Below are positions 13,051 through 19,618 of a stretch of DNA of 25,823 nt, piece after piece. The notes under the pieces are model-generated. The model saw only the letters and a list, made by a program, of their open reading frames with translations. It did no database searches and was not told where the DNA came from. Each line of letters starts with the position of its first letter. Position 1 is the stretch's first letter. Source of the DNA: a virus; the IMG/VR virus record IMGVR_UViG_3300027969_000390, positions 1-25,823 of that record. One strand, given 5' to 3'. Position numbers and translations under genes: made by a program.

Positions 13051-13541
13051 ATGATTGACCCATTTACAGCTTTTGCCCTTGCCCAAGGCGCGGTAGCCGG
13101 TATAAAAAAGCAGTCGCTCTTGGTAAGGATATCCACAGCCTATATAAAGAATTCAGCAGTTTTTATCAAGCAGCGGACACGGTTCACCTAGCAAGCAGCA
13201 AGGCACGGATTGCTTCAATAGGAAAATCAAATGCACAGATTAGTTCCCAAGCACTCCAAATTGCAATGGCTTCCAAGGCGTTGCGGGAACACGAAAAGGA
13301 ACTGAAGGACATACTTTTCTACAGCGGTAACGCTCAGGTCTGGGAAGAGATGATGTCAGAGCGGACTAGGTTGATAAAGGAGCGCAACACGCTGGAGAGA
13401 GAAGAAGCGGAGCGCAAACAGAAGGACAAGGAAATGAAGGTAGCGATTATTATGAACACGCTCTGGATTACCGGCGCTTCCGCTATCATCGTGCCGTTGG
13501 TCAGTGTTGCATTTCACGTTGTAACGAACAGGGGCTTTTGA
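13051..13541 (+). CDS. Tail-anchored membrane protein encoded in two frames (-1 frameshift)
   Basis: The ATG at 13051 follows TAGGAG. Read straight it gives only 46 residues and stops at a TAG just after 13183. A -1 shift at A-AAA-AAG (13104-13110) joins MIDPFTAFALAQGAVAGIKK to AVALGKDIHSLYKEFSSFYQ. The frame then stays open to the TGA at 13539-13541, for 163 residues. The joined product is coherent: an N-terminal helix, ADTVHLASSKARIASIGKSN, a charged coiled coil (MMSERTRLIKERNTLEREEA), and a C-terminal TM helix (IIMNTLWITGASAIIVPLVS). I recall phage proteins with this layout in a single frame. The location upstream of the holin suggests a lysis-associated role, unproven. Confidence 0.72.
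13104..13110 (+). promoter_or_regulatory. Slippery heptamer A-AAA-AAG
   Basis: In the frame set by the ATG at 13051 the codons are ATA AAA AAG, so the heptamer is in the exact X-XXY-YYZ phase for -1 slippage. After slippage the next codon is GCA at 13110. AAGGCG lies at 13085-13090, further upstream than usual for a stimulatory Shine-Dalgarno-like element. I see no strong downstream hairpin, only a weak TGG/CCA pairing. Confidence 0.6.
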
Positions 13542-13888
13542 TGAGTGAAGAAAAAATCCAAGCAATGGAAACCAAAAGCGCCTTGGTTGAGAAAATCACA
13601 TTCGCTTTGTTGCCGCTATTATTTTCGTGCGTGGTTTATCTCATGTCGGCTCTGTCTAACCTGTCTCACGAAGTCACTATCCTCAATAGCAAAATCAGCT
13701 TGGTGGTGACCTCTGATAACAAGCAAGCGAGTAACACAGGTGCGGAGTTAGCAAGGGAAAAACTACGCCAAGACTTGGAAAAAGAAATCCAAAAGAACAG
13801 GGATGACATTCAAGTCAACCGTCTGCACATTGCCATCTTGGAAGACAGAGCAGGGATGAAAACCACGTTTAAAAAGGAAGATAAATGA
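13541..13888 (+). CDS. Membrane-anchored coiled-coil phage protein (lysis region)
   Basis: 115 residues. The ATG at 13541 overlaps the previous stop (TGATG). Residues about 18-40 (ITFALLPLLFSCVVYLMSAL) are one TM helix. The remainder is a soluble charged helix containing HEVTILNSKISLVVTSDNKQ, AREKLRQDLEKEIQKNRDDI and VNRLHIAILEDRAG. It sits between a tail-anchored protein and a holin, so it could be an accessory lysis protein (antiholin or inner-membrane spanin-like). It lacks recognised family motifs for either. The stop overlaps the next start (ATGA). Confidence 0.7.
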   Translation: MSEEKIQAMETKSALVEKITFALLPLLFSCVVYLMSALSNLSHEVTILNSKISLVVTSDNKQASNTGAELAREKLRQDLEKEIQKNRDDIQVNRLHIAILEDRAGMKTTFKKEDK

Positions 13889-14397
13889 TTCCAATCATCG
13901 GAGCATTGCTAGGTACGCTGGCTGAAAACGGTCTGGGGCTGTTGTCTAGTGCCATCCAAGCCAAAGGCAAAGAGGTGGTGGAAAACACCTTGGGCATCAA
14001 GATACCCGATAACCCGACACCGGCCGATGTTGAGAAGCTGCGTGAGTTGCAGTACCAGCATGAAGAGCGCCTGATTGAGTTGGGCATTGAGAAAGCCAAG
14101 CTGGAGATGGCCGAACTGGAACTGCTTGCCAAGGCCGCACAAGCCGATGCCGACAACATTACAGACCGTTGGCAGGCAGATATGTCTTCCGACTCTTGGC
14201 TGTCCAAGAACATCCGGCCTATGTCGCTGGTTGCGCTGTTTCTGGGGTACTTCTTGTTTGCCATGATGTCTGCTTACGGCTACAACGCAAACGAGAGCTA
14301 CGTGACCTTGCTAGGAAATTGGGGACAGCTAATCATGGGCGCATATTTCGGTGGACGCACAATCGAAAAGCTGGCTGAAATGAGGATTAAAAAATGA
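13885..14397 (+). CDS. Holin, GTA-type three-TM family
   Basis: 170 residues. The N-terminus IPIIGALLGTLAENGLGLLS is hydrophobic. Residues about 50-95 form a charged coiled coil (YQHEERLIELGIEKAKLEMA). The C-terminus contains two hydrophobic segments: IRPMSLVALFLGYFLFAMMS and WGQLIMGAYFGGRTIEKLAE. The signature SKNIRPMSLVAL...YFGGRTIEK matches the phage family described as holin of three TMs for gene-transfer-agent release (PF11351, from memory). The role is to permeabilise the inner membrane so that endolysin can reach the wall. The endolysin lies two genes downstream. Confidence 0.82.
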   Translation: MIPIIGALLGTLAENGLGLLSSAIQAKGKEVVENTLGIKIPDNPTPADVEKLRELQYQHEERLIELGIEKAKLEMAELELLAKAAQADADNITDRWQADMSSDSWLSKNIRPMSLVALFLGYFLFAMMSAYGYNANESYVTLLGNWGQLIMGAYFGGRTIEKLAEMRIKK

Positions 14398-14594
14398 GCA
14401 TCTTCATTCCCGTCCTCTACATCTGCATGAACGGGCACTGCGAGTTCCTGCAACAGCTTACCCACTACACTGACAGGCCGCAATGCATGACAGCCGTGCG
14501 GTCAAAGAAGCAGGACTACATTGATATGGGTGCGACGGTAGACGCAACGTGTATCGACCTAGTTGTTCAAAAAAGGGGTAACCATGAGTCTTAG
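14394..14594 (+). CDS. Small Cys-containing protein in lysis cassette
   Basis: 66 residues. The start overlaps the holin stop (ATGA). The hydrophobic N-terminus MSIFIPVLYIC is followed by MNGHCEFLQQLTHY. Cysteines at 11, 16, 31 and 53 could form two disulfides, suggesting export to the periplasm. No clear signal peptidase site or lipobox is present. Its place between holin and endolysin invites a spanin-like reading, but the motif evidence is insufficient. It overlaps the endolysin by 11 bases. Confidence 0.65.
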   Translation: MSIFIPVLYICMNGHCEFLQQLTHYTDRPQCMTAVRSKKQDYIDMGATVDATCIDLVVQKRGNHES

Positions 14595-14922
14595 TCAAGA
14601 ACAAGCCGCATTCCTGCTGGATATGTGCAAGCTGATTCAGTACGCCACAGACCAAGGCTTCATGGTCACAGGTGGGGAACTTGCCCGTACTCCAGAACAG
14701 CAAGCCATTTACGTGAAGACGGGTCGCAGCAAGACCATGAACAGCATTCATTTAAAGCGGTGCGCGATGGACTTGAACTTCTTTCGTGATGGGAAAATTA
14801 TCTGGGACAAAGCCATCCTAGCTCCAGTAGGTGCGTACTGGGAAACCCTGCACCCCAAAAACCGCTGGGGCGGAAACTTCAAGAGCTTGGTAGACTGCCC
14901 GCACTTTGAGCGCAACGTGTAA
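14584..14922 (+). CDS. Endolysin, M15 L-alanyl-D-glutamate peptidase type
   Basis: 112 residues from the ATG at 14584, preceded by AAGGGGT; a TTG at 14563 would add seven residues and is less likely. It is a VanY/M15C-like zinc peptidase. SIHLKRCAMDL gives zinc ligands His56 and Asp63 (spacing of seven as in T5 endolysin). DCPHFE gives catalytic-type Asp104 and ligand His107, matching the DxxH of that family. ELARTPEQQ near residue 32 is also typical. It has no wall-binding domain and is shorter than T5 endolysin (137 residues). It cuts peptidoglycan stem peptides during lysis after holin triggering. Confidence 0.87.
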   Translation: MSLSQEQAAFLLDMCKLIQYATDQGFMVTGGELARTPEQQAIYVKTGRSKTMNSIHLKRCAMDLNFFRDGKIIWDKAILAPVGAYWETLHPKNRWGGNFKSLVDCPHFERNV

Positions 14923-17704: not shown

Positions 17705-19618
17705 ATGAGCCTTCAACTTGTCGCCAATCACCTAGCCCAAAAGGGCCGTGGCCCAGACTCCACCCTCGTCCACATGTCCAACCGGGAAGTGGCAGGTTTA
17801 AACGCTCTTGCTCACAAGCATGGCGGTCAACTCAGTGTAAATCCCGACACCGGGCTCCCTGAAGCAGGGTTCTTGGACAACATCCTGCCTGCCGTTGCAG
17901 GTTTTGGGCTTTCAGCGGTGACCGGGATTGACCCCATAACTTCCGCTGCAATTGTCGGTGGTATTACCGCACTGGACTCCAAAGACCTGAGCAAGGGCTT
18001 GGTTGCAGGTCTTGGCGCTTACGGCGGCGCTGGTATGGCTGGAGGTTTGGCAACTCTTGGCGGAGCAGAAAGCCTAGCTACAGCCACCCCGGCACAATAC
18101 GGCGCAGGATATGATGCGTTTACCAATGCGCCAATGGCTTCCCTCTCTACCCTTGGCGGCGGCAGCGCACTGAAGGGCAGTCTCCCCATCTTGGAGGGCT
18201 TGGCCCCCGCTGCTGTTGAAGCGTTTGATGAAGAAGACGAAGACAAGCCACCAGAGCAACACAAGGGCTACATCCGCAAGTACGCGCTTGACCCTGTTAC
18301 TGGGCAATACAAACAAGTGGGCGCATATGAGGCGGGCGGTGACCCCAACGTGGATGTGTCGTCCAAAGCCGGTACGGCAGGCGCGTTTGGCGGTGTGGGC
18401 CAGTCTGAGTATGAAGCTGCGCAAGGCATGGCTGACGGCGGCACAACATCAAGCGACTCCAGCCGCATCTATGACTACCTGATGGGACGCGGGCCTAACC
18501 CCATGCAGTTTACACACACCACCTCCCCACAGGTGGACTACAACATAAACAAAACTCCTGCACCAATTACGCCCACCACTCCTATTTTGGAAGAGGTGTA
18601 TGACCCGTATGGGAATAGAAGTGGCGGCTCAGGGGGAACGGCAGAGCAACGCGAACAACGTGAAAAAGATTGGAACGCTCCACAAGATTATTTGAGTATT
18701 GACCGTGTTAACCCGGATGGGACAATATCTAAAGACGTTCAGTCAAATGCCAGTCTTGCAGCAATGAGCCCCTCCGAAAGAGCAATGCACATGGCAGATG
18801 TTCGGCGAATAAACCCAATCAGAACTTTTGTATCCGATGCAGTTACAAAAATTGGTTTAATACCCGTTGCAAAAAATATTTACGACCATTTTGCATATGG
18901 AAACCTTGGCAGGCCGCTACCACCGGGAATGCCGCCAGCGCCAGTACGAGATATACAGCCCGGAGAATACAAATTTAGCGAATTGGGAGCAATACAAAAC
19001 GCTATTAACAATACTGATTTTTCTGGAATGGACAGGGGTAGTACTTCTCAAGCGCCAACAACACCAGATACGCAGTCAGTTCAAAACGCTATTAACAATA
19101 CTGACTTTTCTGGAATGGACAGGGGCAGCAATGCATCTAGAGGAGACGGCCCAAATGGCCCTGAGGGACGCGGTGACCCCGGTGGAGATAGAGGTGGGTG
19201 GGGAAGAGGTGGGGGTTATGCTCGTGGCGGTCTACCAGCCCCCGGTGCTTTCTACCGCAAAGGTAAGTACAACTACAAAGGCCCACAGGTCTACGCAGAT
19301 GGCGGCGGCATAGCCGACCTTGAAGGCCATTACAACCTCGGTGGCTACTCCGATGGCGGGCGCTTGCTAAAAGGGCCGGGAGATGGCGTTTCCGACGACA
19401 TCCCAGCTACAATTGGTCACGGTCAGCCAGCCCGCCTTGCAGATGGCGAATTTGTGATTCCTGCGCGGATTGTTTCCGAAATTGGTAACGGTTCCACAGA
19501 CGCAGGTGCTCGTGAGTTGTACAAGATGATGGACAGAGTTCAAGCCGGTCGCCGTAAGACCGTAGGTAAAGACCAAGTGGCGAAGAACAGTAAAGCTGTT
19601 CGCCACCTTCCAGCGTAG
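17705..19618 (+). CDS. Large phage virion protein, possible internal protein
   Basis: 637 residues with AAGGA upstream. It begins SLQLVANHLAQKGRGPDSTL, VHMSNREVAGLNALAHKHGG and LPEAGFLDNILPAVAGFG, then an Ala/Gly hydrophobic stretch (about 60-140) that could insert into membrane. The middle is polar and low-complexity with a duplicated segment. The C-terminus has GDGVSDDIPATIGHGQPARL, ADGEFVIPARIVSEIGNGST and ARELYKMMDRVQAGRRK, a pattern I recall from uncultured phage structural proteins. It lacks enzymatic motifs. It heads a block of four large genes expected to include ejected inner-core proteins. Confidence 0.68.
   Translation: MSLQLVANHLAQKGRGPDSTLVHMSNREVAGLNALAHKHGGQLSVNPDTGLPEAGFLDNILPAVAGFGLSAVTGIDPITSAAIVGGITALDSKDLSKGLVAGLGAYGGAGMAGGLATLGGAESLATATPAQYGAGYDAFTNAPMASLSTLGGGSALKGSLPILEGLAPAAVEAFDEEDEDKPPEQHKGYIRKYALDPVTGQYKQVGAYEAGGDPNVDVSSKAGTAGAFGGVGQSEYEAAQGMADGGTTSSDSSRIYDYLMGRGPNPMQFTHTTSPQVDYNINKTPAPITPTTPILEEVYDPYGNRSGGSGGTAEQREQREKDWNAPQDYLSIDRVNPDGTISKDVQSNASLAAMSPSERAMHMADVRRINPIRTFVSDAVTKIGLIPVAKNIYDHFAYGNLGRPLPPGMPPAPVRDIQPGEYKFSELGAIQNAINNTDFSGMDRGSTSQAPTTPDTQSVQNAINNTDFSGMDRGSNASRGDGPNGPEGRGDPGGDRGGWGRGGGYARGGLPAPGAFYRKGKYNYKGPQVYADGGGIADLEGHYNLGGYSDGGRLLKGPGDGVSDDIPATIGHGQPARLADGEFVIPARIVSEIGNGSTDAGARELYKMMDRVQAGRRKTVGKDQVAKNSKAVRHLPA
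18995..19128 (+). repeat. 47-base direct repeat inside the 17705 gene
   Basis: Copies at 18995-19041 and 19082-19128 differ at two positions and are offset by 87 bases (29 codons), keeping frame. Both encode QNAINNTDFSGMDRGS, separated by a linker with PTTPD. They look like a recent in-frame duplication or slippage product. Confidence 0.9.

Follow-up and report, generated by a model that had tools for sequence, protein, structure and literature searches.

Phage frameshifts are known mostly from tail chaperone and coat genes. An upstream Shine-Dalgarno-like stimulator is present in dnaX and is optional in the -1 frameshift class. Frameshifting at the heptamer A_AAA_AAG is established for dnaX, for tail chaperones and for insertion sequences (PMC3711429, PMC3483164, PMC4066793, PMC5009743). 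The authors of PRFect list lysins among frameshifted genes and recall expression of the MS2 lysis gene as frameshift-dependent (PMC10885494). In the literature searched, the scope of which excluded most subscription papers, no report was found of a frameshift in a lysis-cassette membrane protein of the phrog_32327-related family described here.

The locus lies in IMG/VR virus record IMGVR_UViG_3300027969_000390, positions 1 to 25,823; this whole stretch of 25,823 nucleotides is referred to as the window, and its relevant features are collected in Table 1. The gene shares with E. coli dnaX the A_AAA_AAG heptamer, a hairpin approximately 11-12 nt from the P-site codon and early termination of one product. 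It is a different gene, and its shifted product is the longer of the two whereas that of dnaX is the shorter. Unlike dnaX, no conserved Shine-Dalgarno-like stimulator was found upstream, the nearest AAGG or AGGG ending ∼15 nt upstream and missing in 30%. With the phage tail assembly chaperone pair G/GT it has in common the phage origin, the -1 shift and the heptamer, which is used in several phages (PMC3483164); it differs in its location in a lysis cassette instead of upstream of a tape-measure gene, in the lack of a chaperone sequence match and in its tiny short product. Transposases of the IS3/IS911 type share A_AAA_AAG followed by a stem-loop (PMC4066793), whereas the present locus is without a transposase and falls in a phage lysis region.

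Table 1. Positions of the features of the frameshift gene and of the genes that follow it in the window.
Feature	Positions	Strand	Remarks
Frame-0 ORF	13051..13191	+	Starts at ATG, ends at TAG; encodes the unshifted 46-aa product, which has its first 20 aa in common with the full-length protein
Slippery heptamer A_AAA_AAG	13104..13110	+	Invariant in 108 distinct split stretches and 74 dereplicated genes
-1 frame part of gene	13110..13541	+	143 aa; C-terminal transmembrane helix (hydropathy); TGA 13539-13541; pN/pS 0.05-0.10
Spacer, heptamer to core hairpin	13111..13115	+	5 nt; RNAalifold consensus begins at column 13 of A3
Putative stimulatory hairpin, 5' arm	13116..13130	+	Possibly extended to 13114 by two further weak pairs
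Putative stimulatory hairpin, 3' arm	13159..13174	+	13171 bulged; extension to 13176
Next gene, weakly spanin-like	13541..13888	+	Its ATG shares bases with the frameshift gene's stop (TGATG); transmembrane segment at the N-terminus and coiled coil; phrog_739, E 0.095
Holin	13885..14397	+	ATGA overlap with the preceding gene; phrog_3427 holin, 1.3e-12; PF11351 below cut-off
M15 peptidase endolysin	14584..14922	+	phrog_465, 1.1e-16; PF13539, 1.5e-7

The codons ATA (13102), AAA (13105) and AAG (13108) place the heptamer in exact X_XXY_YYZ phase with the ATG at 13051, in agreement with an earlier note on this DNA that had the two frames meeting at 13104-13110 in correct phase and an unshifted product of 46 residues; the TAG closing that product was located at 13189-13191. 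Frame 0 read to the heptamer and the -1 frame read on to the TGA together specify one protein of 163 residues, of which the -1 frame supplies the remainder, and the two frames thus encode one coherent protein as the note had it. The -1 frame opens at 13059 and contains no ATG, GTG or TTG until 13266, and for this reason it cannot initiate near the junction on its own. AAAAAAG occurs 7 times in the window against 6.3 expected. As the heptamer is no rarity there, the case was built on comparison with relatives, and it is the position within the split gene together with absolute conservation that raises the heptamer above chance.

A search of viral contigs yielded 425 relatives, and the split was inspected in the best 80 of these. 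The same split was present in 78 of the 80; of the other two, L052 ends at the end of its contig and L001 differs. The stretches were collected with a pattern that required one missing base and accepted any coding of Gly-Ile-Lys-Lys, allowing 12 codings of Ile-Lys-Lys, and at least 119 were obtained. Despite the 12 permitted codings, ATAAAAAAGC was found in all 108 distinct split stretches examined. The codons ATA-AAA-AAG showed zero synonymous variation in 74 genes (97% dereplication), whereas the other codons averaged 0.33-0.50. The earlier note had named reads with seven A, or close relatives continuous and without a conserved heptamer, as observations that would count against a frameshift, and the comparison with relatives favored the frameshift on both points. 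The A run of the shared split was six long, and in no case seven, in relatives drawn from 47 or more different metagenome projects. Among diverged homologues the site is conserved only as far as the split clade reaches, the more distant ones being continuous.

Purifying selection followed the proposed change of frame. The pN/pS ratio was 0.08 in frame 0 before the heptamer and 0.05 and 0.10 in the -1 frame after it, while values in the other frames tested exceeded 1. The shared split and the change of the selected frame at the heptamer support the programmed -1 frameshift that the earlier note considered likely. A homopolymer is a classic site of sequencing error, and the note had offered a one-base deletion in the A run, real or a sequencing error, as its alternative. 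Identical relatives in so many projects, the zero synonymous change and the strong purifying selection on both parts of the gene rule out both sequencing error and a decaying gene, leaving these a negligible probability. The same conservation and pN/pS evidence makes a strong case against a pair of independent genes, a short one in frame 0 and a downstream one with its own start. An ORF of 91 aa does begin at ATG 13266, yet the pN/pS of 0.05 in the -1 frame extends over the region 13059-13266 that has no -1 start codon, and approximately 78 distant relatives have the whole protein in a single continuous frame, making two genes highly improbable.

A hairpin that the earlier note had not seen was found downstream of the heptamer, and its covariation strengthens the case for frameshifting. 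The base of the stem lies 5 nt past the heptamer and 11 nt from the first base of the P-site codon. A structure 5-8 nt after the slippery site is the rule for -1 frameshift cassettes (PMC4066793), and the dnaX and HIV elements act at 11-12 nt (PMC7282821); the spacing of this covariation-supported hairpin falls within the former range. At 13118-13172 the pairing alternates between C-G and T-A; each site changed about seven times, and outside a divergent hairpin group no mismatch occurs. Among 2016 pairs of synonymous sites with two states, no other showed perfect association. When only starred branches were counted, four independent pairs agreed and none disagreed, numbers too few for a sign test at 0.05. 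The hairpin was paired in 93% of cells compared with 35-59% in slid versions, its covariation was matched by none of 500 shuffles, and the shuffle z was -2.84. Folding energy was only a little better than that of codon-shuffled versions (mean z -0.8). Since the stem positions as a group are no less variable than other third positions, the case for the hairpin is founded on covariation and position and not on overall conservation. Four genes without the main hairpin can form another that starts 6 nt past the heptamer. RNAalifold returned no structure for windows omitting the 3' arm, and the Rfam search of the region gave one sub-threshold match only.

These results bear also on transcriptional slippage, by which one A would be added to part of the mRNA at the A run, equal in frame to a -1 shift. 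In its favor, six A stand before G and an identical fusion protein would result; known realignment, however, uses runs longer than seven A (PMC3711429), and neither the unvarying AAG phase nor the covarying hairpin 5 nt further on is accounted for by a run of A alone. Transcriptional slippage is accordingly very improbable. As judged by comparison of the sequences, site, frames, hairpin and stop are all conserved, and it is highly probable that expression of the gene depends on a working programmed ribosomal frameshift (-1, dnaX type), an assessment that covers the frameshift and not its role.

Among the PHROGs the protein matched phrog_32327 and further families, all of unknown function, and no others, and no Pfam match above the cut-off was found. 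It is predicted to be helical with one C-terminal membrane helix, based on hydropathy and on a structure model of the continuous relative L236 (pLDDT 75, pTM 0.48), for which the viral structure library contained uncharacterised homologues only. Membership in a holin or spanin family was rejected on the lack of any such PHROG or Pfam match and on the single C-terminal transmembrane segment. Assignment as a tail assembly chaperone G/GT was likewise discarded, PHROG and Pfam revealing no chaperone homology and the neighbors encoding a tail fibre, a holin and an endolysin. Homologous proteins of the phrog_32327 type in HMO-2011, Limnohabitans DC31 and Roseobacter CRP phages are commonly encoded near holin, M15 or lysozyme genes, in one continuous frame unlike the window gene. 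Continuous relatives on contigs of 150-300 kb (L097, L112, L117, L235 and L237) indicate that very large phages carry members of the family too.

The holin directly follows the split gene at 58 split loci, and at 7 more, the window included, a spanin-like gene separates the two; in most relatives the holin is directly next. The earlier note had suggested that the ratio of short to long product could tune a membrane protein beside the holin. Stop and start of the split gene and the following gene overlap at most split loci, and an M15 endolysin lies downstream of the holin. Continuous relatives from cultured and uncultured phages are also commonly near lysis genes. At 7 loci a continuous version precedes the same holin, indicating that the cassette can work without the shift, which is therefore not essential. 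Since six of these overlap the holin gene (ATGA) and the seventh abuts it, the overlap was discarded as a feature specific to split genes. In L301, L302, L304, L298 and others the continuous version is about 35-41% identical and the holin mostly about 91-92% identical, and the slot before the holin holds exchangeable alleles with and without the frameshift. The gene at 13541-13888, a possible i-spanin, lies between frameshift gene and holin in few relatives, and some of the continuous relatives have sequences related to it at a distance of about 1.6 kb upstream. Elsewhere in the window, 17705-19615 encodes a 637-aa protein without a PHROG match, the last 90 residues of which are 47% identical to Planktothrix and Synechococcus phage proteins annotated as calcium-binding or solute-binding. 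Relatives of the frameshift gene were not found in bacterial genome contigs.

A profile search retrieved approximately 78 more distant relatives with 32-66% identity, all continuous, and the split formed one clade on the tree, with one gain and one loss, although many forks are weak. Since the distant relatives are continuous, the split would have arisen once, through loss of one base, and been lost once. The nearest continuous relatives read ATC or ATT AAA AAA GCA, which minus the wobble base gives ATA AAA AAG CA.

A sister lineage, represented by L001 (around 4001) and L109 (IMGVR 3300013014_000081 and 3300027798_002563), lacks the heptamer and reads ATC AAA AAG GCC, continuous at that spot. 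One additional T close to the start (ATG ATT GAT CCT TTT CGT TGC) puts its ATG +1 out of frame; since the two contigs differ at 48 of 761 bases, the T is not a single error. A +1 slip at UUU_CGU would yield MIDPFVAF. Alternatively a TTG start would serve, in which case the conserved DP would be dropped.

The slip itself, its efficiency and its role are inferred, and the course of events would be as follows. Ribosomes starting at 13051 would pause with AAA-AAG in the P and A sites and the hairpin at the mRNA entry. A part of them would re-pair one base back on AAA-AAA and produce the 163-aa protein with its C-terminal membrane anchor, and the remainder would end at the conserved TAG and release an N-terminal peptide of 46 aa, or 21 aa in some lineages. 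The most likely role of the frameshift would be to keep a tail-anchored lysis-cassette protein low and, through the overlap of the gene's stop with the start that comes next (TRATG), to limit how many ribosomes pass into the holin or spanin-like gene.

The purpose may be such a throttle on a lysis-cassette protein, or the shift may be a fixed deletion made tolerable by slippage. In its full form the throttle is rather unlikely: only slipped ribosomes would arrive at TRATG and supply the gene that follows, holin or spanin-like, and slip efficiency would thereby set the amount of the tail-anchored holin partner and the translation of the holin, hence the time of lysis, with one sister lineage perhaps using the +1 site UUU_CGU instead. 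A tolerated or corrective frameshift, a class recognised by Atkins et al. (PMC5009743), is a tentative explanation, less likely than not; it takes the frameshift as real and differs only about what it is for. The ancestral Ile wobble base would have been lost and A_AAA_AAG kept as the sole route to the full-length protein, short product and ratio being without a role. This would be consistent with the single gain, with nearest continuous relatives one base away, with the continuous distant alleles in the same slot before the same holin and with the residues of the frame-0 tail, which are not conserved. The ending of the short product, however, is conserved. The frame-0 stop is NTAG in 84 of 84 distinct genes, the -1 codon above it being CTA, TTA, GTA or ATA followed by G and so always giving TAG. 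On the tree this codon underwent 6 first-base and 0 third-base changes, a first-base-only pattern unique among 43 codons. About a quarter of the distinct genes have in addition gained an earlier TAG right after the heptamer, which would shorten the product to 21 aa. Since mere repair gives no reason for keeping stops, the conserved TAG and the extra stops count against a solely corrective shift, as does the finding of one reversion lineage only.

Overall, the results point to a -1 frameshift of a known type, very probably real and under selection, in an undescribed gene family. Standard gene callers likely miss or truncate the frameshift protein in hundreds of contigs. The finding places a conserved frameshift in a lysis-cassette gene of a large group of uncultured phages, and the continuous relatives occupying the same slot provide a natural experiment for asking what a phage gains from shifts of this kind.
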